Both the position numbers and the translations under genes were made by a program. Shown here piece after piece: positions 1,630 to 15,441 of a stretch of DNA of 17,567 bases; within the stretch, counting starts at the first letter, position 1, and each line of letters opens with the position of its first letter. Location: assembly GCA_020722945.1 (NCBI GenBank), contig DYJV01000024.1:1-17567 (forward strand). Direction: 5' to 3'. The DNA comes from Candidatus Methylomirabilis sp. GTDB lineage: Bacteria > DYJV01. Under the pieces are notes generated by a model, which was given only the letters and a program-made list of their open reading frames with translations, had not been told where the DNA came from and did not search any database.

Positions 1630-2985
1630 TTAATTTTTGTTAGTTAGGGGCAGATGTTCTAATGCTTTCTTGATCTCTTCACCTGCAAGGTGAAAATCGG
1701 ATAGTTGACCTGTATTGAATTTGTCGTAAGATACAAGGTCAAAATAACCATGTCCACTAAGATTAAATAGGATAGTTTTTGGATTTTTCTCCTCTTTTGA
1801 TTTTAATGCCTCATCAATAGCAGCTTTGACTGCGTGAGATGATTCAGGAGCTACAATTAACCCTTCAGTTTTTGCAAAGTCGGAAGCAGCTTTAAAAACT
1901 TCTGTCTGAGTATATGCTCTTGCAGATATAAGACCTTTTTTAGCAAAGTAGCTTACAAGTGGAGCCATTCCGTGATATCTCAATCCACCTGCATGTATAG
2001 ATGGAGGCATAAATTTATGACCAAGAGTATACATCATTATTATAGGAGTGAGTCCTGCAATATCTCCATAATCGTAAGCGTAAAGACCTTTTGTCATTGT
2101 AGGGCATGCAGAAGGTTCTACAGCTATTATATCTATCTTCTTCCCATTCATCTTCTCTCTTATGTAAGGGAATGATATCCCGGCAAAGTTACTCCCTCCG
2201 CCAACACATCCGATAACTACATCAGGATAATCATTTATTATCTGAAATTGTTTGATAGCTTCTTCACCTATGATTGTTTGGTGCAGACATACATGGTTGA
2301 GCACACTTCCAAGAGCATAATTTGTGTCTTTTCTTGAAAGAGCATCCTCCACAGCTTCACTTATTGCGAGTCCCAAAGAACCGTTGGTATTTGGGTCCTC
2401 TTCAAGCATTTTCCTACCTATCTGAGTAAGAGGGCTTGGGCTTGGAACAACTTTCCCACCCCATGTTTCTATCATAAATTTTCTGTAAGGTTTCTGATCG
2501 TAGCTGACCTTAACCATATAAACCATAATTTCAATTCCGAAGTATGCACCTGCAAGGGATAATGCACTTCCCCACTGGCCTGCACCTGTCTCTGTAGCCA
2601 ATCTTTTTATACCTGCTTTTTTGTTGTAATAAGCTTGAGGAACAGCAGTATTAGGCTTGTGGCTCCCCGCAGGACTTACCCCTTCATATTTATAGTATAT
2701 TTTTGCTGGTGTTTGCAAAAACTCCTCTAATTTTTTTGCTCTCATAAGGGGGCTTGGTCTCCATATTTTGTAAATGTTAAGGATCTCTTCAGGAATATCG
2801 ATAAATCTCTCGGTAGATACTTCTTGCTTTATAAGTTCATCAGGGAATATTGCTTGTAAGTCTTCAAGCCTGACAGGCTCTTTTGTCCCGGGGTGAATAG
2901 GTGGTGCGAGAGGCTCACTCATATCAGCCTGAATATTATACCATTTCCTCGGCATATCTTTTTGAGGTAAATCAACTCTAATCAT
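1630..2985 (-). CDS. trpB2: Tryptophan synthase beta-like protein TrpB2
   Basis: This is a PLP enzyme of the TrpB2 branch, which joins indole to serine (or, in some archaeal members, O-phosphoserine) to make tryptophan. The 451-residue protein carries the N-terminal TrpB2 stretch PRKWYNIQAD. The PLP lysine lies in SPAGSHKPNTA (Lys110). The cofactor-phosphate loop GGGSN is at about 262-266. Length and motifs match TrpB2, which is longer than TrpB1. The start at 2985 is set by AGGAGG five bases upstream (2991-2996). An upstream in-frame GTG at 3069 is rejected because translation would run through the leader terminator hairpin. No trpA or other trp gene is adjacent, so the enzyme may act alone or as an indole-salvage enzyme. 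The leader carries a Trp-codon attenuator, which supports control by tryptophan availability. Confidence 0.92.
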   Translation of the reverse strand: MIRVDLPQKDMPRKWYNIQADMSEPLAPPIHPGTKEPVRLEDLQAIFPDELIKQEVSTERFIDIPEEILNIYKIWRPSPLMRAKKLEEFLQTPAKIYYKYEGVSPAGSHKPNTAVPQAYYNKKAGIKRLATETGAGQWGSALSLAGAYFGIEIMVYMVKVSYDQKPYRKFMIETWGGKVVPSPSPLTQIGRKMLEEDPNTNGSLGLAISEAVEDALSRKDTNYALGSVLNHVCLHQTIIGEEAIKQFQIINDYPDVVIGCVGGGSNFAGISFPYIREKMNGKKIDIIAVEPSACPTMTKGLYAYDYGDIAGLTPIIMMYTLGHKFMPPSIHAGGLRYHGMAPLVSYFAKKGLISARAYTQTEVFKAASDFAKTEGLIVAPESSHAVKAAIDEALKSKEEKNPKTILFNLSGHGYFDLVSYDKFNTGQLSDFHLAGEEIKKALEHLPLTNKN

Positions 2986-3027
2986 TACTATCCTCCTTTT
3001 ATTTTGTGTAAATTTTACTTTTAATAT

Positions 3028-3061
3028 AAAAAAAAAGCCGCTGTGGAAAACCAGCGGCTTT
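3028..3061 (-). terminator. Attenuator terminator hairpin in the trpB2 leader
   Basis: On the minus strand AAAGCCGCTG (3061-3052) pairs perfectly with CAGCGGCTTT (3043-3034), and the T run continues to 3028. This is a strong intrinsic terminator between the leader peptide and the trpB2 Shine-Dalgarno. Upstream, GGTG..GCACA (3102-3092) can pair with TGTGCTACC (3070-3062). The alternative pairing TGTG/CACA plus ACCA/TGGT (3070-3061 with 3053-3042) would use both terminator arms and act as an antiterminator. It is also the first terminator met after the htrA stop codon. Confidence 0.8.
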
Positions 3062-3088
3062 GGTAGCACACTAATTCCCTATTAAAAA

Positions 3089-3136
3089 TTATGTGCACCA
3101 CCAAATATTTAAAGAGATATTAACATTTATAAACAT
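3089..3136 (-). CDS. Putative tryptophan leader peptide (tandem Trp codons)
   Basis: A short reading frame codes for MFINVNISLNIWWCT and stops with TAA, 28 nt before the attenuator terminator stem. Two adjacent TGG codons (3103-3098) sit in the first arm of a leader hairpin, where a ribosome stalled for lack of Trp-tRNA would free the downstream segment for antitermination. This is the arrangement of classical trp attenuators. An in-frame ATG at 3151 would add five residues. Neither start has a recognisable Shine-Dalgarno, and with the predicted promoter the 3136 start would be almost leaderless. That is the main weakness of the call. Confidence 0.65.
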   Translation of the reverse strand: MFINVNISLNIWWCT

Positions 3137-3141
3137 ACAAA

Positions 3142-3170
3142 AATCTAACATTAATTTTAAATAATGTCAA
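3142..3170 (-). promoter_or_regulatory. Candidate sigma70 promoter for the trpB2 leader
   Basis: On the minus strand a perfect TTGACA (3170-3165), starting at the base after the htrA stop codon, is followed by a 17-bp spacer and TAGATT (3147-3142, four of six consensus matches). Transcription would begin near 3136, at or next to the leader-peptide ATG. Confidence 0.5.
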
Positions 3171-6222: not shown

Positions 6223-6252
6223 ATTATAGACCAATTTTTGAAAAGGGTTAAA

Positions 6253-7428
6253 ATGAAAAATTTACCATTAAATGGAGTGAAGATTTTAGACCTTTCCAGA
6301 CTGCTACCTGGACCATACTGCTCGATGATACTTGCTGATATGGGTGCAGAAGTTATTAAGATAGAGGATACTCAAGCAGGTGATTACTTCAGAGATTGGG
6401 AGCCTAAAAAAGATAAAAATAGTGTATTCTTCATTGGAGTCAATAGAAATAAGAAGAGTCTTACCCTTGATCTAAAAAAAGATAAGGGCAGAGAGATACT
6501 TTATAGATTAGTTAAGAATGCTGATGTTGTAATTGAAAGTTTTAGACCAGGAGTCACAAAAAAGCTCCAAGTTGATTTTGATACCCTCAAAAAATATAAT
6601 AGCAGAATAATTTACTCCTCAATAACTGGTTATGGGCAGAATACCTCCCTCAGAAATAAAGCTGGACACGACCTCAACTATCTTGCTCTGTCAGGGATAT
6701 TGAGTTTTTCAGGGACAAGGGATGGTAATCTTCCAGTTCTTGGGATACAGATAGCCGATATGGCTGGCGGGATATTTGGGATAATATCTATACTGCTTGC
6801 TCTTTTGAGAAGGGATAAGATTAATGAAGCACAATATATAGACACTGCTATGATGGATGGTCTCTTCTCTTTTCTAAGTATGGTAAGTGGAAAATATTTT
6901 TTTGATAAAAATATACCTTACCCTGCTTCAAATCTTTTTACGGGGAAATTTGCTTGTTACAATGTCTACAAAACAAAGGATGGCAGATTTTTTACTGTTG
7001 GAGCTATTGAAGATAAATTTTGGGATAGATTTTGTGAGGTGATAGGTAAGCCTGAATGGAGAGGGAAAAATAATCTTGAAGAGATTCAGGCTAATCTTGT
7101 AAATGAGCTTTCAGCTATCTTTGAATCTAAAGACTTTTCTGAGTGGATAGATATTTTTAAAAATGAGGATATTTGTGTTGAACCAGCACTCAATTTAGAG
7201 GAAGCATTAGAATCTGACTATGCAAAAGAGAGGGGGACTCTTTTAAAAATAGATGACAAAATAGATGGAGAAAATACCCTTATCGCTTCACCTATTTTTA
7301 TCTCCCCTGATATGAAAATTCCTCGAAAATCCCATCCTCAAAAGGGCCAAAATAGAGAAGATATTCTTATTGAGAATGGTTTTTCAAAAGATGAGATAGA
7401 CCAATTCATAAAGGACCAAGTTATCTAA
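6253..7428 (+). CDS. CaiB/BaiF-family CoA transferase or alpha-methylacyl-CoA racemase
   Basis: This 391-residue protein belongs to the class III CoA transferase superfamily. The N-terminal signature LPLNGVKILDLSRLLPGPYCSM and ADMGAEVIKIE are family hallmarks. Residues typical of the racemase branch are present: His139 in AGHDLNYLALSG and Asp169 in IADMAGG. The region YIDTAMMDGLFS also supplies Asp202 where CoA transferases carry the catalytic aspartate. Family membership is sure, but the reaction (CoA transfer to a free acid or epimerisation of a 2-methylacyl-CoA) is not. As first gene of the cluster it could make or isomerise the acyl-CoA substrate of the dehydrogenases. The ATG at 6253 (preceded by AAAAGGG) is preferred over an in-frame TTG at 6238. 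Its stop overlaps the merR start by one base (TAATG). Confidence 0.85.
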   Translation: MKNLPLNGVKILDLSRLLPGPYCSMILADMGAEVIKIEDTQAGDYFRDWEPKKDKNSVFFIGVNRNKKSLTLDLKKDKGREILYRLVKNADVVIESFRPGVTKKLQVDFDTLKKYNSRIIYSSITGYGQNTSLRNKAGHDLNYLALSGILSFSGTRDGNLPVLGIQIADMAGGIFGIISILLALLRRDKINEAQYIDTAMMDGLFSFLSMVSGKYFFDKNIPYPASNLFTGKFACYNVYKTKDGRFFTVGAIEDKFWDRFCEVIGKPEWRGKNNLEEIQANLVNELSAIFESKDFSEWIDIFKNEDICVEPALNLEEALESDYAKERGTLLKIDDKIDGENTLIASPIFISPDMKIPRKSHPQKGQNREDILIENGFSKDEIDQFIKDQVI

Positions 7429-7817
7429 TGCCACAAAACAAAGATTACTATCATATAGGTGAAATTGCGAAGAAACTAAAAGTAAGCCAGAGGACAATCA
7501 GGTATTACGAAGAGATAGGTTTGCTCAAAGAAGCAAAAAGAATGGGGAGTAATTTCAGAATATATGACGACGAAGACCTCATGCGGATAAAGTTTATTCA
7601 GAAGCTGAAGCTACTTGGACTTAAACTTTCTCAGATACAGGAGCTTGAGAAGCTTTACAGAGGTTACAATGCAAATAAAAAATTTATACCAAGATTAATA
7701 GAGATGTTTGATGATAAAACAAGTGAAATAGATGAAAAGATAGGTAACTTGCAAAATTTAAGAGAAGAGATTTTAAGTTACAAAAAAAAATTATTAGAGA
7801 AGCTTTTAGAAGATTAA
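7428..7817 (+). CDS. MerR-family regulator, LiuR-like
   Basis: This is a 129-residue transcription factor. The winged-helix DNA-binding domain spans about 7-75 (YHIGEIAKKLKVSQRTIRYYEEIGLL, then NFRIYDDEDLMRIKFIQKLKLLGLKLSQI). A dimerising coiled coil follows, with many Lys/Glu heptad positions to the C terminus. There are no cysteines, so metal or thiol sensing of the MerR/SoxR type is unlikely. The length and location inside an acyl-CoA oxidation operon match LiuR-type regulators of branched-chain amino acid and fatty acid catabolism. It is translationally coupled to the preceding gene and probably controls the cluster through the dyad at 6209-6222. An acyl-CoA ligand is expected, but that is inference. 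Confidence 0.85.
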   Translation: MPQNKDYYHIGEIAKKLKVSQRTIRYYEEIGLLKEAKRMGSNFRIYDDEDLMRIKFIQKLKLLGLKLSQIQELEKLYRGYNANKKFIPRLIEMFDDKTSEIDEKIGNLQNLREEILSYKKKLLEKLLED

Positions 7818-7830
7818 TTAGGGGGTAGTT

Positions 7831-9009
7831 ATGAGTGTAGTGATTGTTTCAGCTTGTAGAACAGCTATAGGTAATTTTCAGGGAGCTCTTTCACCTTTTA
7901 CAGCCACTCAGCTTGGTGCTATGGCAATAGAAGAGGCAGTTAGAAGAGCAGGTATAGATAAGAAAATGGTTGATGAAGTTATTATGGGTAATGTTTTGCC
8001 GTGTGGTCTTGGGCAGAATCCTGCAAGACAAGCTATGATAAAATCTGGTCTTCCGATGGAGGGTGGAGCTATCACCGTAAACAAGGTATGTGGTTCTGGT
8101 CTTAAAACTATTATGCTTGCTGAACAGGCTATCAAGTGTAACGATGCTGATATAATAGTTGCAGGTGGTATGGAGAGTATGACCAATGCACCTTTTTATC
8201 TTGAAAAGGCAAGGAGTGGTTATCGTATGGGACAAGGTAAGATAGATGACCACATGGTTCATGATGGTTTGTGGGATGTTGTTAACGATTTTCATATGGG
8301 TTATACTGCTGAGTTGATGAAAGATAAATTTAATATCTCCACAGAAGAGATGAACGATTTTTCTGTCCAATCTAACGAAAAAGCTGTTAATTCAATAGAG
8401 AAAGGTCTATTTGACAACGAAATTTTTCCTGTTTCAATTCCTCAAAAAAAGGGTGAACCTACTATTTTTAAAAGAGATGAGGGACCACGGAGAACATCAG
8501 TAGAAACTATTGCCAAATTAAATCCTGCTTTTAAAAAGGGTGGGACTGTTAATGCTGGGAATGCTTCAAAGATAAGTGATGGAGCAGCAGCAGTTGTAGT
8601 TATGAAAGAGGAGAAAGCTCGTGAGCTTGGATTGAAACCTCTTGTTAAGATTGTTGCACAAGGAGCAGCAGGTAGAGTGCTTGAAGAGGTATTGGTTGCA
8701 CCTATCAGCTCTATTCCAAAAGTTTGTAAAAAAGCTGGATTAAAAATTTCTGATATAGATTTACACGAAATAAATGAAGCTTTTGCTGTAACATCAATTG
8801 CAATAATTAAAGAGCTCGGAATAGACCCTAATAGAGTAAATATTTATGGTGGAGCAGTTGCACTTGGACATCCAATAGGAGCAAGTGGAGCAAGAGTTTT
8901 GGTTACACTTATTTCAGCTTTAAAAGAGAGAAATCTTAGGTATGGAATGGCTTCACTCTGTCTTGGCGGGGCTGAGGCTGTATCAATGATAGTAGAGAAT
9001 TGCTATTAA
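7831..9009 (+). CDS. Acetyl-CoA acetyltransferase (thiolase), copy 1
   Basis: This thiolase makes or cleaves a 3-ketoacyl-CoA with CoA; in a degradative cluster it would release acetyl-CoA. The 392-residue length is standard for the biosynthetic-type (PhaA/AtoB) subfamily. Active-site residues are all present: nucleophile Cys87 in NKVCGSGLK, His347 in GGAVALGHPIGASGAR, and Cys377 in ASLCLGGAEA. NEAFAV at 315-320 is also conserved. The start follows the G-rich ribosome-binding site AGGGGG, 13 nt after merR. A second thiolase follows 18 nt later. The two differ enough that separate chain-length or branching preferences are likely, for example acetoacetyl-CoA against 2-methylacetoacetyl-CoA. Which is which cannot be read here. 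Confidence 0.93.
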   Translation: MSVVIVSACRTAIGNFQGALSPFTATQLGAMAIEEAVRRAGIDKKMVDEVIMGNVLPCGLGQNPARQAMIKSGLPMEGGAITVNKVCGSGLKTIMLAEQAIKCNDADIIVAGGMESMTNAPFYLEKARSGYRMGQGKIDDHMVHDGLWDVVNDFHMGYTAELMKDKFNISTEEMNDFSVQSNEKAVNSIEKGLFDNEIFPVSIPQKKGEPTIFKRDEGPRRTSVETIAKLNPAFKKGGTVNAGNASKISDGAAAVVVMKEEKARELGLKPLVKIVAQGAAGRVLEEVLVAPISSIPKVCKKAGLKISDIDLHEINEAFAVTSIAIIKELGIDPNRVNIYGGAVALGHPIGASGARVLVTLISALKERNLRYGMASLCLGGAEAVSMIVENCY

Positions 9010-9027
9010 AATATAAGGGGGATTTTT

Positions 9028-10305
9028 ATGAGAGAAGTTGTTGTTGTTTCAGCATGCAGAACCGCAATAGGGACTTTTGGTGCATCTTTAAAAGATGTCT
9101 CTGTTGTAGAACTTGGTAGTAATGTAATAAGAAAAGTTTTAGAAAAAGTTAAGCTCAAACCTGTTTCTTCTCAATCTGTCAAAAATTTTGGACCTGAATC
9201 TCTTAAAAATGATAAATGTCCTGTTGAAGAGCAGAATTACAAATGGGATGAATCTTTCAAACCTATTCAAATTGATGAAGTTATTATGGGTAATGTTGTT
9301 GCTGCTGCTCAAGGTCAAAATACCACAAGACAGGCACTTATTAAAGCAGGTATCCCAAAGGAAGTTGGTGGATTTACGGTAAACAAAGTTTGTGCTTCAG
9401 GATTAAAATCTGTTGCTCTTGCTTTCCAGTCAATTCAATCAGGGGAAGCTGATGTAATAATTGCAGGTGGTATGGAAAATATGAGCCAGATCCCTTATGC
9501 TATGCCTTCTGCAAGATGGGGAGCAAGGATGAATAATACTCAAATGCTTGACCTTCTTGTGTATGATGGGCTTTGGGAGATATTTTACGGTTATCATATG
9601 GGTATTACTGCTGAGAATATTGCAGCCAAATATGGGATATCAAGGGTAGAGCAGGATGAACTTTCTTTTGAAAGTCATCAAAGAGCATTAAAAGCTATTG
9701 AGACAGGGGTTTTCAAGGATGAGATAGTGGATGTTGTTATCCCACAGAAAAAGAAAGACCCTATTATATTCAATATTGATGAAAGACCTATGAAAACATC
9801 TCTTGAAAAGATGGCTCAGCTCCCTACTGCTTTCAAAAAAGATGGGACAGTCACAGCTGGTAATGCTTCAGGTATCAACGATGCAGCAGCAGCAATCTTG
9901 CTTATGTCAAAAGAGAAAGCTCAGGAGCTTGGACTTGAAATTCTTGCAACAATCAAAGGTTACTCTTATGGGGCAATAGATCCTGCATATATGGGTCTTG
10001 GTCCTATCCCAGCAATCAACAAGCTATTCAAAAAACTCAATCTTAAAATGTCAGATATAGACCTTATAGAGCTCAATGAGGCTTTTGCAGCTCAGGTTAT
10101 TGGTTGTATAAGAGAGTTAAAATGTGATTTAAACAAAACAAATATCTATGGTAGTGGAATATCACTTGGTCACCCTATTGGAGCTTCAGGTGCAAGGATA
10201 CTTGTAACACTTATTCATGGGCTCAAGAGAAATAATCTAAAAAGAGGCCTTGCTTCTCTCTGTATTGGTGGTGGACAGGGTGCTGCAATGGTTATAGAAA
10301 GATAA
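9028..10305 (+). CDS. Acetyl-CoA acetyltransferase (thiolase), copy 2, with N-terminal insertion
   Basis: This is a second thiolase of 425 residues with a complete active site: Cys122 in NKVCASGLK, His382 in GISLGHPIGASGAR and Cys412 in ASLCIGGGQG. Compared with copy 1 it carries about 35 extra residues (45-79) between the first helix and IDEVIMGNV. This segment is polar, has one Cys and one Trp, and is in frame without stops. Everything before and after aligns with normal thiolases, so the insertion is a local addition and not a wrong start. It falls where other thiolases have only a short turn. Gene spacing of 18 nt and the AAGGGGG site indicate co-transcription with copy 1. Confidence 0.92.
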   Translation: MREVVVVSACRTAIGTFGASLKDVSVVELGSNVIRKVLEKVKLKPVSSQSVKNFGPESLKNDKCPVEEQNYKWDESFKPIQIDEVIMGNVVAAAQGQNTTRQALIKAGIPKEVGGFTVNKVCASGLKSVALAFQSIQSGEADVIIAGGMENMSQIPYAMPSARWGARMNNTQMLDLLVYDGLWEIFYGYHMGITAENIAAKYGISRVEQDELSFESHQRALKAIETGVFKDEIVDVVIPQKKKDPIIFNIDERPMKTSLEKMAQLPTAFKKDGTVTAGNASGINDAAAAILLMSKEKAQELGLEILATIKGYSYGAIDPAYMGLGPIPAINKLFKKLNLKMSDIDLIELNEAFAAQVIGCIRELKCDLNKTNIYGSGISLGHPIGASGARILVTLIHGLKRNNLKRGLASLCIGGGQGAAMVIER

Positions 10306-10368
10306 CAAACTGCTTTTTATTTTACATTTTTAATAGATTATAGTTAAAAAATATTAAGGAGGCTGATT

Positions 10369-11220
10369 ATGGAAGTAAAAGTTTTTGGTGTTGTAGGTGC
10401 AGGTCAGATGGGCAATGGTATTGCTCAGGTTGCTGCTGAAGCTGGAATGAATGTTATTATGAGAGATATTAAGGATGAATTTGTTCAAAGAGGGCTTGAT
10501 ACAATCAAGAAAAATTTTGAAAGAGCTGTAAGTAAAGGTAAAATGAGTGATGATCAGATGAAAACTGTTCTTTCAAGAATAAAAGGCACTACTGATATAG
10601 GTGATTTCAAAAATGCAGATTTTGTTGTTGAGGCTGCTGTTGAGAGAGAAGACCTTAAACTACAAATTTTCAAAGAATTAGACCAAATTACAAAGAGTGA
10701 TGTAATTCTTGCATCAAATACAAGCTCTATTTCAATTACAAAGATTGCTTCTGCTACAAAGAGAGCAGAGAGGGTTATCGGCATGCATTTTATGAACCCT
10801 GTTCCTGTAATGAAATTAGTTGAGATAATAAGAGGTCTTGCAACTACTGATGAAACCTACAAAGTAACAAAAGCATTATCTGAAAAAATGGGTAAAACTT
10901 GTGCAGAAGCTCAAGATTTTCCCGGTTTTATTGCAAACAGAATTCTTTTACCGATGCTTAATGAAGCTATCTATTGTCTTTATGAAGGTGTAGGGACACC
11001 TGAAAGCATAGATACTGTTATGAAACTTGGGATGAATCATCCTATGGGACCATTGGCATTAGCTGATCTCATAGGTCTTGACACATGTCTTGCTATTATG
11101 AATGTTCTTCACCAAGGTCTCGGTGATTCCAAATACAGACCTTGCCCACTCTTGAAAAAATATGTTGATGCAGGATATCTTGGCAAAAAAGTTGGAAGAG
11201 GTTTTTACAATTATAATTAA
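10369..11220 (+). CDS. hbd: 3-hydroxyacyl-CoA (3-hydroxybutyryl-CoA) dehydrogenase
   Basis: This NAD(P)-dependent enzyme oxidises 3-hydroxyacyl-CoA to 3-ketoacyl-CoA, the step before the thiolases. The 283-residue length matches stand-alone Hbd/PaaH proteins without a hydratase domain. The nucleotide-binding loop is [12 protein letters not shown] (8-19), with Asp33 in MRDIKDE near the adenosine ribose, which favours NAD. Catalytic residues: His140 in [17 protein letters not shown], Glu152, Asn190 in GFIANR, and Ser119 or Ser120 in SNTSSIS. The C-terminal dimerisation part ends [20 protein letters not shown] precedes the ATG. The 63-nt gap from the preceding thiolase shows no terminator. Confidence 0.93.
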
Positions 11221-11242
11221 ATAAAAATTTAAGGAGTTCAAA

Positions 11243-12385
11243 ATGGAGTTTCAACTGACAGAAGAGCAGAAAATGATTCAGGATATGGTTCGTAATTTTG
11301 CCTCTAAAGAGTTAAAACCATTAGCTGAGAAGATAGACAAAGAGCACTACTTTCCTAAAGAGATAGTGGCAAAACTTGGAGATCTTGGATTAATGGGTGT
11401 TGCAATCCCGGATCAGTATGGTGGAGCTGGTATGGATAATATCTGCTATTCAATCGCTATTGAGGAGATAAGCAGATATTGTGCGTCTACAGGTGTAATA
11501 ATGTCTGTAAACAATTCACTTGCTTGTGATCCTGTTTACAGATTTGGTAATGAAGAGCAGAAAAAGAAGTATCTTACACCAATGGCAAGTGGAAAGAAGT
11601 TAGGTTGTCTTGGTCTTACAGAACCAAATGCGGGGAGTGATGCTTCAAATATTTCAACAACAGCAAAACTTGTTGGCGATGAGTGGATAGTTAATGGAGC
11701 AAAACTTTTTATTACAAATGGTGGTGAGGCAAATACTGGTGTTATTATTGTTCAAACAGACAAAACATTAAAAACTAAAGGTTTGGCTGCATTGATAGTT
11801 GATTTTGACAATACACCCGGTTTTAAAGTTGGTAAACTTGAAAGTAAACTTGGGATCAGAGGTTCTTCAACTGCAGAGCTGATATTTGAGGATGCGAGAG
11901 TTCCAAAAGAGAATTTGCTTGGGAATGTTGGTGATGGATTTAAAGTTGCATTGTCAACTCTTGATGGCGGCAGGATAGGTATTGCTTCACAGGCTCTTGG
12001 AATTGCAAGGGGAGCACTCGAAGAGTCAATCGAATTTGCTAAAAATAGAGTTCAATTTGGTAAGCCTATTGCAGATTTGCAAGCTATTCAGTGGATGATA
12101 GCTGATATGGCTACAAGAATTGATGCTTCGAGACTTCTGATTTGGAGAGCTGCATACCTAAAAGATAAAAAACAGCCTTACTCTTCAGAGTCTGCAATGG
12201 CAAAACTTTACGCTTCAGAGACAGCTATGTGGGTTACAACAAAGGCTATTCAAGTTCATGGTGGATATGGATATACTACTGAATACCCTGTTGAAAGATA
12301 CTTCAGAGATGCTAAGATTACAGAGATATATGAAGGGACATCTGAGGTAATGAGAATAGTAATTTCAAGAAACTATTTAAAATAA
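11243..12385 (+). CDS. Acyl-CoA dehydrogenase, short-chain type (first copy)
   Basis: This FAD enzyme forms the 2,3-double bond of an acyl-CoA and hands electrons to ETF. The 380 residues are typical for short- and branched-chain members. FAD/substrate motifs: LGLTEPNAGSD (123-133), FITNGG (156-161), RVQFGKPI (269-276), HGGYGYTTEYPVER (339-352). The catalytic base is Glu364 in IYEGTSE, the position used by short-chain and butyryl-CoA dehydrogenases, so it is not of the isovaleryl-CoA type whose base lies elsewhere. It is directly followed by etfB and etfA, as in butyryl-CoA dehydrogenase/ETF clusters. Whether it oxidises butyryl-, 2-methylbutyryl- or another acyl-CoA is open. Confidence 0.92.
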   Translation: MEFQLTEEQKMIQDMVRNFASKELKPLAEKIDKEHYFPKEIVAKLGDLGLMGVAIPDQYGGAGMDNICYSIAIEEISRYCASTGVIMSVNNSLACDPVYRFGNEEQKKKYLTPMASGKKLGCLGLTEPNAGSDASNISTTAKLVGDEWIVNGAKLFITNGGEANTGVIIVQTDKTLKTKGLAALIVDFDNTPGFKVGKLESKLGIRGSSTAELIFEDARVPKENLLGNVGDGFKVALSTLDGGRIGIASQALGIARGALEESIEFAKNRVQFGKPIADLQAIQWMIADMATRIDASRLLIWRAAYLKDKKQPYSSESAMAKLYASETAMWVTTKAIQVHGGYGYTTEYPVERYFRDAKITEIYEGTSEVMRIVISRNYLK

Positions 12386-12410
12386 TCATTATAAAAAAGA
12401 GGAGGTAAAA

Positions 12411-13193
12411 GTGAAAACTATTGTTTGTATTAAACAGACCTTTGACACAGAAGCTAAAATAGCTATTGAAGGTGGTAAAATCTCTAATAAGGGTGTAAAA
12501 CTTATAACAAATCCTTACGATGAGTTTGCAGTTGAGGAAGCTATCAGATTAAAAGAGAAAAATGGAAGTGAAGTTGTTCTTGTTTGCCTTGGGGAGGATT
12601 CAGCCCAAGAAACTATAAGATATTGTCTTGCAATGGGTGCAGACAGAGCTATTCACCTTTCTGACCCTGCATTTCTCAATGGTGATGAAAAAAGTATTGC
12701 TGAAGGAGTTGCAGCAGCTATTAAAGCAGAGGGAGATTTTAATCTTGTTCTATGTGGTCAGGTTGATGTTGATTCTGGTTCATGCCAAGTTCCTCAGAGA
12801 ATAGCAGAGATACTTGATATTCCTCAGGTTACGATTGTTACAAAAATAGAGTTTAATGGTGACAAAGCTACTGTTACAAGAGAAGCTGATGGTGGTAATG
12901 AAGTTTGGGATGTTCAGTTGCCAGCAGTTATTTCAGCTCAAAAAGGTTTAAATGAAGCAAGATTCCCATCACTTCCAAATATAATGAAAGCTAAGAAGAA
13001 AGAGATTAAAGTTATGACCCCTTCAGAGATAGATGCAGATGAGTCAAATCTTGGGAATGAAGGTGCAGGCACAGAAGTTATTGAATATTCATTCCCACCA
13101 AAGAGAGAGAAGGGGAAATTGTTTACTGGTGAACCTGAAGATTGTGCAGCTCAGTTGGTAAAAGCATTAAAAGAAGAAGCAAAATTAATCTAA
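12411..13193 (+). CDS. etfB: Electron transfer flavoprotein beta subunit
   Basis: EtfB is the AMP-binding half of the ETF heterodimer that accepts electrons from acyl-CoA dehydrogenases. The 260 residues begin with the typical MKTIVCIKQT. ITNPYDEFAVEEAIRLKE and LCGQVDVDSGSCQVPQRIAE (114-133) follow, and the family signature LPAVISAQKGLNEARFPSLP is at 170-189. The start codon is GTG with AGGAGG seven bases upstream. It follows the dehydrogenase by 25 nt and precedes etfA by 21 nt. Sequence reading alone does not tell whether this ETF is a bifurcating type. Confidence 0.95.
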   Translation: MKTIVCIKQTFDTEAKIAIEGGKISNKGVKLITNPYDEFAVEEAIRLKEKNGSEVVLVCLGEDSAQETIRYCLAMGADRAIHLSDPAFLNGDEKSIAEGVAAAIKAEGDFNLVLCGQVDVDSGSCQVPQRIAEILDIPQVTIVTKIEFNGDKATVTREADGGNEVWDVQLPAVISAQKGLNEARFPSLPNIMKAKKKEIKVMTPSEIDADESNLGNEGAGTEVIEYSFPPKREKGKLFTGEPEDCAAQLVKALKEEAKLI

Positions 13194-13214
13194 AAAAAAG
13201 GGAGGTTTAAATAG

Positions 13215-14189
13215 ATGAGTATTTTAGTTTATTGTGATACCTTTGAAGGTAAATTAAGAAAAGTTTCTCTAGAGCTTTTGAGTGAAGCTGCAAAAATTGC
13301 AGATAAGAGTGGCGATACTGTTGAAGCTATTGTTTTGGGCAGTGGAGCAAAAGCTCTTGCAGGGGAGACAGGTAAATATGGTGTTAAAAAAGCATACTAC
13401 TGCGAAGATGCTTCTTTGGAGAAATATTCTACTGAAGGTTATGTAGATGTTGCAAAGCAAGCTTTTGATAAAAGCTCTCCAAAGCTTTTTTTAGCAGGTC
13501 ATAATTCGAGAGGTAGAGATTTTGCTCCAAGATTAGCTCAGAAGTTAGATCTTGGGATGGTGTCTGATGTTATCGCAATTGAGGCTAATGGTGATGACTT
13601 TACTTTTACAAAACCTATCTATGCAGGTAAATGTATTACAAAACAGAAATGTAAAACTTCACCAGCATTTGTTACAGTGAGACCAAATGTAATGAGTGTT
13701 GCCACTAAAGATTTAGGTGCTCCTGAGCTTGTTGAACTTAAGCCAGAAGTGAGCCTAAGTGATATTAGAGCAATAGTTAAAGAGATATTACTCCAAAAAT
13801 CAGAGAGACCAGAGCTTACAGAAGCAAGAGTAATAGTAAGTGGAGGAAGAGGTTTGGGTAAAGCTGATGGTTTTAAATTGATAGAAGAGCTTGCAGATGC
13901 ACTTGGTGCTGCTGTTGGTGCAAGTAGAGCTGCTGTTGATTCAGGGTGGATAGGGCACTCTGTTCAGGTAGGTCAGACAGGTAAAGTTGTTGCTCCGACC
14001 TTATATGTTGCTTGTGGAATTTCTGGTGCTATTCAACATTTGGCTGGAATGAGCTCATCTAAATTTATAGTTGCTATCAATAAAGATTCTGAAGCTCCTA
14101 TTTTTAATATAGCAAGTTATGGAATAGTAGGGGATCTATACAAAGTTATCCCTGTTATGATTGCAGAGTTAAAGAAAGTAATGGCTTAA
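13215..14189 (+). CDS. etfA: Electron transfer flavoprotein alpha subunit
   Basis: EtfA binds the redox-active FAD of the heterodimer. It has 324 residues with a divergent N-terminal domain (1-195) and the conserved FAD domain (about 200-320): VSGGRGLG (208-215), GASRAAVDSGWI (235-246), QVGQTGKVVAPTLY (251-264), GISGAIQHLAGM (268-279), IVAINKD (285-291) and FNIASYGIVGDLY (297-309). All expected FAD contacts are there, so the protein should be functional. No ferredoxin domain is fused to the N terminus. GGAGG lies upstream of the ATG. It is the last gene before a strong terminator. Confidence 0.95.
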   Translation: MSILVYCDTFEGKLRKVSLELLSEAAKIADKSGDTVEAIVLGSGAKALAGETGKYGVKKAYYCEDASLEKYSTEGYVDVAKQAFDKSSPKLFLAGHNSRGRDFAPRLAQKLDLGMVSDVIAIEANGDDFTFTKPIYAGKCITKQKCKTSPAFVTVRPNVMSVATKDLGAPELVELKPEVSLSDIRAIVKEILLQKSERPELTEARVIVSGGRGLGKADGFKLIEELADALGAAVGASRAAVDSGWIGHSVQVGQTGKVVAPTLYVACGISGAIQHLAGMSSSKFIVAINKDSEAPIFNIASYGIVGDLYKVIPVMIAELKKVMA

Positions 14190-14201
14190 TTTTTTAATAT
14201 T

Positions 14202-14233
14202 TGGGCGGAGTTTACAGCTCCGCTCATATTTTT
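14202..14233 (+). terminator. Intrinsic terminator after etfA
   Basis: TGGGCGGAG (14202-14210) pairs with CTCCGCTCA (14218-14226), including one G-U, with a 7-nt loop, followed by TATTTTT. It separates the eight-gene cluster from the second acyl-CoA dehydrogenase. Confidence 0.75.
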
Positions 14234-14282
14234 ATAAAATTTAAGGGGTTGCTATATTAATTTCTTAAATTTTATAAAAATA
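14227..14282. repeat. 19-bp perfect inverted repeat upstream of the second acyl-CoA dehydrogenase
   Basis: The arms TATTTTTATAAAATTTAAG (14227-14245) and its exact reverse complement (14264-14282) flank an 18-nt centre. The left arm shares the T tract of the etfA terminator. The right arm ends 5 nt before the AGGAGG of the next gene and contains a TATAAA box. It may be an operator, a transcript hairpin, or both. Confidence 0.6.
14249..14278 (+). promoter_or_regulatory. Candidate promoter of the second acyl-CoA dehydrogenase
   Basis: TTGCTA (14249-14254) and TATAAA (14273-14278) are separated by 18 bp, after the etfA terminator. The -10 box lies inside the right arm of the 19-bp inverted repeat, so a factor binding the repeat would block it. 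Confidence 0.4.
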
Positions 14283-14298
14283 AAATCAGGAGGATCAA

Positions 14299-15441
14299 AT
14301 GGAGTTTTTTTTAACAGAGCAGCAGAAAATGATCAGAGATATGGTAAGAGATTTCGCAGAGAAAGAGATAAAACCTATTGCTGGAGAAACAGACGCAAAA
14401 CATCTATTCCCTGCAAATAACATAAAAAAAATGGCTGAATTAGGGCTTATGGGTATGAATATCCCTGAAGAGTATGGTGGTGCAAGTGTTGGTGTTGTTC
14501 CTTACAGTCTTGCATTAATGGAAGTTGGACAAAAATGTGCATCAACAGGTGTTACAATGAGTGTTACAAATATGGTTAATGAAGTTATATATGCTTTTGG
14601 TAAAGAGGAGCAGAAGAGAAAATATATATCAAGGATATGTAGTGGAGAGTATCTTGCAGGAGCATTTGGACTTACAGAGCCCCATGCTGGATCTGACCCT
14701 GCAAGTATGAAGACAAAAGCAGAGAAAGATGGAGATTACTATATCCTTAATGGGAACAAAATATGGATAACAAGTGCAGAAATTTCAGGAGTTATAATAA
14801 TATGGGCAATCACTGATAAAGATGCTCCCAAAAATAGAAGATTAAGTGCTTTTATTGTTGAAAAAGAAACTCCGGGTCTTATCGTAGGGAAAGCAGAATT
14901 AAAACTTGGTCAGAAAGGTTCTCCTACTAATCCACTTACTCTTGAAGATGTAAGAGTTCATAAAGATAATCTATTAGGAAAAGAGGGTGATGGATTGAAA
15001 ATTGCCCTTATGGCACTTGATGGTGGGAGAATTGGAATAGGTTCAATGGCTTGCGGTATAGGGACAGGAGCTATTGACATAGCTATCAATTATGCAAAGG
15101 AGCGGACTCAATTTGGTCAGTCTATATCAAATTTTCAGGCAATTCAGTGGAAGATAGCTGATTCAATGGCAGAGCTTGAAGCTGCAAAACTTTTATGCCT
15201 CCGTGCTGCTTGGATGAAAGAGAACAAAGTTCCTTTCTCAAAAGAGGCTTCTATGGCAAAAGTTTACAGCACAGAAGCGGCAAACAGAGTTTGTTATGAA
15301 GCGATTCAGATACTTGGTGGTTATGGTTATGCTGAAGAGTATAATGTCGAAAGATATTACAGAGATGCAAGAGCAACCACACTTTATGAGGGGACATCAG
15401 AGATACAGAGACTTGTCATCGCAAGAAATATACTACAATAG
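14299..15441 (+). CDS. Acyl-CoA dehydrogenase (second copy)
   Basis: This is another FAD acyl-CoA dehydrogenase of 380 residues, colinear with the first copy but clearly diverged, so not a recent duplication. Motifs: FGLTEPHAGSDPA (123-135), KIWITSAEISG (154-164), RTQFGQSI (269-276), LGGYGYAEEYNVERYYRDAR (339-358), and the catalytic base Glu364 in LYEGTSEIQR. Preserved motifs with a changed substrate-side region (for example ACGIGTGAIDIAINYAKERT) suggest a different acyl chain. It has a good AGGAGG site, its own possible promoter, and terminators on both sides, so it can be expressed apart from the main cluster while sharing its ETF. Confidence 0.92.
   Translation: MEFFLTEQQKMIRDMVRDFAEKEIKPIAGETDAKHLFPANNIKKMAELGLMGMNIPEEYGGASVGVVPYSLALMEVGQKCASTGVTMSVTNMVNEVIYAFGKEEQKRKYISRICSGEYLAGAFGLTEPHAGSDPASMKTKAEKDGDYYILNGNKIWITSAEISGVIIIWAITDKDAPKNRRLSAFIVEKETPGLIVGKAELKLGQKGSPTNPLTLEDVRVHKDNLLGKEGDGLKIALMALDGGRIGIGSMACGIGTGAIDIAINYAKERTQFGQSISNFQAIQWKIADSMAELEAAKLLCLRAAWMKENKVPFSKEASMAKVYSTEAANRVCYEAIQILGGYGYAEEYNVERYYRDARATTLYEGTSEIQRLVIARNILQ

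Follow-up and report, generated by a model that had tools for sequence, protein, structure and literature searches.

The 3170-2985 region (minus strand) of the window, by which we mean the whole 17,567-nucleotide stretch that was analysed, very probably (about 0.88) acts as a ribosome-mediated attenuator of transcription, sensing charged tRNA-Trp and governing a lone trpB2 gene. Judged from its sequence, the switch would probably let transcription into trpB2 only under tryptophan scarcity. The region separates htrA/degP (4580-3171) from trpB2 (2985-1630) in a window of 34% GC (source contig C20; assembly of 2.5 Mb). No 16S rRNA turned up in this assembly. The observed part of the case consists of the sequence elements, their predicted folds, a sister leader on the genome's own trp operon and the recurrence of such leaders at trpB2 elsewhere. 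The elements in and around the region are:

3142-3170, minus strand: sigma-70-type promoter TTGACA-17-TAGATT with an extended -10 (TGtTAGATT), 10 of 12 consensus positions
3089-3136, minus strand: leader peptide frame of 15 codons, MFINVNISLNIWWCT and a stop, from ATG 3136 to TAA 3089 (predicted translation)
3061-3103, minus strand: hairpin 1:2, with the two Trp codons in its 5' arm; -19.9 kcal/mol, z -5.6
3045-3079, minus strand: antiterminator 2:3, 3079-3066 with 3059-3045; -13.9 kcal/mol, z -2.6
3028-3061, minus strand: intrinsic terminator 3:4; -17.2 kcal/mol, z -4.7
Immediately 5' of the ATG at 2985, minus strand: trpB2 Shine-Dalgarno AAGGAGG
1630-2985, minus strand: trpB2, a TrpB-like PLP enzyme (stand-alone beta subunit) of 451 aa
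1599-1627, no strand assigned: terminator-like hairpin between the convergent trpB2 and radical-SAM gene (270-1574)

The gene behind the leader encodes a clear TrpB2-type protein, which scored 737 bits against NF009057 (cut-off 366) and 653 bits against TIGR01415 (cut-off 519) and matched the solved chain 4qys ('Tryptophan synthase beta chain 2') at 1e-119. trpB2 appears monocistronic because its neighbour is convergent and the terminator-like hairpin at 1599-1627 lies between them. The protein type, a location outside operons and a true trpB1 in the genome's trp operon fit the lone trpB2 class (TrpB2_o), an assignment made on protein type and gene context. Elsewhere in the window, a plus-strand cluster at 6238-15441, annotated partly by eye, contains genes for a CoA-transferase-like protein, a MerR-type regulator, two thiolases, a 3-hydroxyacyl-CoA dehydrogenase, two acyl-CoA dehydrogenases and two electron-transfer flavoprotein subunits; it has the appearance of an operon for breaking down fatty acids or amino acids.

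The promoter (TTGACA at 3170-3165, a 17-nt spacer and the -10 hexamer at 3147-3142) directly follows the htrA stop codon (3173-3171). Codons 12 and 13 of the leader frame are tandem Trp codons (TGG TGG at 3103-3098), followed by Cys and Thr; a longer frame from ATG 3151 was rejected, this ATG lying upstream of the -10 hexamer. The terminator comprises a stem at 3061-3034 and nine T residues at 3036-3028. An earlier sequence-only reading had described the promoter, the Trp-Trp frame, the first hairpin, the T-run terminator and trpB2; all are present where it placed them, and the folding energies listed above bear out its first hairpin and strong terminator. When the window was searched on both strands by a mechanical rule (a frame of 8-40 codons that contains WW and is followed, no more than 160 nt on, by an intrinsic terminator), the trpB2 leader was the single match.

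The whole leader was predicted to fold at -36.8 kcal/mol, compared with a shuffled mean of -19.1 (z -6.1). Without a ribosome, or once the ribosome is released, 1:2 and 3:4 form together in the predicted fold. The alternative 2:3 pairing, GGGAAUUAGUGUGC (3079-3066) with AGCCGCUGGUUUUCC (3059-3045), is incompatible with both of these hairpins. Masking of the Trp codons and the ribosome footprint made 2:3 the most stable predicted fold for transcript ends 3053 to 3038; in the masked growing RNA, 2:3 has its full -13.9 kcal/mol once the transcript end is at 3044, the terminator being favoured only from about 3035. Statistically the antiterminator is modest, its z of -2.6 being significant but not dramatic. 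The sequence-only reading erred in detail on the competing pairing: TGTG/CACA with ACCA/TGGT, although it can form, is weak at -4.7 kcal/mol and was set aside for the better 2:3 pairing.

A simpler account, in which the hairpin is only the htrA terminator and the Trp-Trp frame is coincidental, seems improbable. The htrA stop lies 110 nt upstream and nothing else in between resembles a terminator, which fits such an account. However, a strong promoter starts right past this stop, hairpin 1:2 (z -5.6) covers the Trp codons, and the same layout is found on this genome's trpE and before trpB2 elsewhere. Moreover, no promoter-like site was found between the terminator and trpB2, so that a plain htrA terminator would leave trpB2 nearly silent; for a leader serving trpB2, the same observation means that expression probably depends on readthrough.

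Among the Rfam models, RF00230 (T-box) did not match the window even with E values as high as 1 allowed, and RF00513 (Trp_leader) reached 24.3 bits at the trpB2 leader, under its gathering cut-off of 41. We rejected the latter match as support, given that ordinary terminators in G001, a genome of the same order, reach 31.5 bits; those after psrC- and metF-like genes score at least as high as the trpB2 leader. Such sub-threshold RF00513 matches, at L117 1501-1589 and L119 1180-1251, fall on plain terminators of an AT-rich genome and constitute an annotation trap.

The leader frame has no Shine-Dalgarno, as the sequence-only reading had pointed out as its weak point. The probable answer is a leaderless message: because the leader ATG lies only 5 nt past the -10 hexamer, transcription likely starts at the ATG or a few bases from it. 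The corresponding distance is 6 nt in the trpE leader of the same genome, 7-10 nt in all six trpB2 leaders from the order of genome G014, which have strong promoters, and 6 nt at the trpB2 leader L148 (TTGACA-17-TAAAAT). The short distance is no rule, since other trpB2 leaders, for example L047 and L192, have longer ones; the trpE leader of G001, by contrast, reads AAAGGAGATAAT-ATG. A leaderless Trp leader is established for Sinorhizobium meliloti trpL (PMC7298713).

From these elements we infer a start site, translation, stalling, termination and a response to Trp along the following lines. The transcript would begin at the leader ATG or only a few bases away, and the ribosome would load on this 5' end with no Shine-Dalgarno to guide it. 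Where Trp is sufficient, the ribosome would complete MFINVNISLNIWWCT and leave, 1:2 and 3:4 would form, and RNA polymerase would stop near 3028. With Trp short, the ribosome would stall at codons 12-13 and cover arm 1; 3079-3066 would then pair with 3059-3045 before arm 4 is made, blocking the terminator and allowing trpB2 to be transcribed. The model requires that the ribosome be released and that 1:2 refold, because a ribosome at the stop codon does not clearly cover arm 2. Control of trpB2 would then parallel that of the genome's own trpEGDCFBA operon, itself behind a Trp leader:

L115 (G000:C150), 1437-1598: Trp leader ahead of the canonical trpEGDCFBA operon, with the frame MMTNINTLTTNWWWNSKMI and a stop, a hairpin over the Trp codons and a terminator

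This leader carries three Trp codons starting from codon 12, as in the trpB2 leader, and is probably leaderless as well; its antiterminator has a z of only -0.5. The trpB1 of the operon scored 568 bits (cut-off 392). The genome thus appears, from these sequences, to place the trp operon with trpB1 and the separate trpB2 each behind a Trp leader. Homology between the two leaders is only suggestive (16 of 30 positions identical before the Trp codons; null mean 10.6, p 0.03) and was not adopted. The trpE of G001 also has a Trp leader, with WCWWW; trpB2 is absent from G001, the sole same-phylum genome in the comparison set.

The TrpB2 relatives came from 290 genomes and, among the matches listed, from a scan of genome contigs; no same-phylum member was recognisable among those listed matches. 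A Trp-Trp frame followed by a terminator occurred upstream of trpB2 in 15 of 188 regions among the matches listed, our own included. On the same 188 regions, the antisense control gave 0 and ten Markov shuffles gave 0 each; other amino-acid doublets gave 0 to 10, as raw counts in which many codons are commoner than TGG. Contig loci among the matches listed contained 5 such elements per 37.5 kb upstream of trpB2 versus 3 per 992 kb elsewhere. Carriers include Caldithrix (L047), Neomarinimicrobiota (L059), an Acidobacteria MAG (L076) and Smithella (L099). A full trpB1 was present in 11 of the 15 carrier genomes and a trpB1 fragment in one, the other three showing only trpB2. Trp-Trp frames at L008 and L009 were left out of account, since they probably belong to the ends of longer genes.

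Conservation was seen in two orders. Of nine upstream regions that could be read in the order of G216, seven have a Trp-rich leader and a terminator; the eighth keeps the stems with single Trp codons and the ninth is without them. In segments joined by hand, every cell of this alignment pairs and one position is changed in both partners; the alignment has 5 distinct rows, and its pair counts did not clearly beat shuffles. In the order of G014 (L228-L233), W(M/S/A)WW leaders precede trpB2 in six of six cases. No trpB1 was found in G014 itself, and trpB2 may be its only beta subunit.

Other trpB2 genes carry a different kind of sensor. T-boxes above the Rfam cut-off precede four of them:

L018, 1168-1433: T-box before trpB2
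L039, 2660-2943: T-box before trpB2
L042, 2645-2938: T-box before trpB2
L105, 334-585: T-box before trpB2

All four have UGG at the position read as the specifier and seem to read the Trp codon; three further trpB2 genes have a T-box motif only. The L039 contig also contains a guanidine-I riboswitch at 834-728 (minus strand).

The sister leader, the recurrence with its controls and the conservation in two orders support Trp-codon stalling upstream of a lone trpB2, as the sequence-only reading had proposed, as the best reading of the locus. It is very improbable that the Trp leader mainly yields a trans-acting small RNA or peptide, like rnTrpL/peTrpL of S. meliloti, with control of trpB2 secondary: termination would yield a leaderless RNA some 110 nt long, which is comparable with the S. 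meliloti RNA (PMC7298713), but it has no known target, and the repeated association with trpB2 in other lineages speaks for regulation in cis. Just as slight is the chance that the leader answers general translation slowing, or Cys or Thr at its last codons, instead of Trp, for although it has only two Trp codons before Cys and Thr, other trpB2 leaders have three or four and differ elsewhere, and the T-boxes at other trpB2 genes seem to read UGG.

The lone trpB2 class and its disputed role have been described (PMC1854888). Tryptophan synthesis, indole salvage and serine deamination have been argued from phyletic patterns and kinetics (PMC1854888, PMC11535334); for T. maritima TrpB2 the Km for indole is sub-micromolar, and a relative contributes to the use of cross-fed indole (PMC11535334). 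The wider pattern described here favours a role in tryptophan supply, because other lineages also put Trp sensors before trpB2. A Trp sensor at this gene in distant lineages, and of two types, constitutes independent evidence that TrpB2 is wanted when tryptophan is short, and it turns the question of its role into a testable one. We lean towards the view that control of lone trpB2 by Trp shortage occurs widely among bacteria and has evolved on repeated occasions through different sensors (leader-peptide attenuators, many of them leaderless or nearly so, and Trp T-boxes), and that trpB2 encodes a Trp-supply enzyme, turned on under Trp shortage and probably recapturing indole, and not primarily a serine deaminase.

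The trpB2 leader resembles the Escherichia coli trpL type (RF00513) in its tandem Trp codons in the first arm, its 1:2, 2:3 and 3:4 pairings and its U-tract terminator ahead of a tryptophan gene; it differs in controlling a lone trpB2 instead of a trp operon, in lacking a Shine-Dalgarno and in falling below the Rfam cut-off. With rnTrpL/trpL of S. meliloti (PMC7298713) it probably shares a leaderless Trp leader message, the 5' end here being predicted, whereas the S. meliloti leader governs trpE(G) and also gives rise to products that work in trans. The T-boxes before trpB2 (L018, L039, L042 and L105) are likewise premature-termination sensors, apparently of Trp, at the same gene, but sense uncharged tRNA directly, without a leader peptide. 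In the literature searched, which leaves many subscription papers outside, the only attenuator tied to a 'trpB2' was the candidate before trpB2A of Corynebacterium diphtheriae (PMC1262725); this is also a Trp attenuator before a gene called trpB2, which there is in an operon with trpA and here stands alone. Leader-peptide systems were known by 2010 in Proteobacteria, Actinobacteria and then Firmicutes (PMC2965389). The trpB2 leader lies outside these groups and extends leader-peptide attenuation into a poorly sampled phylum. On the sequence tests applied, it is very probably a genuine device of a known kind, the classical ribosome-mediated Trp attenuator, at a gene where this is almost unreported within the literature searched.
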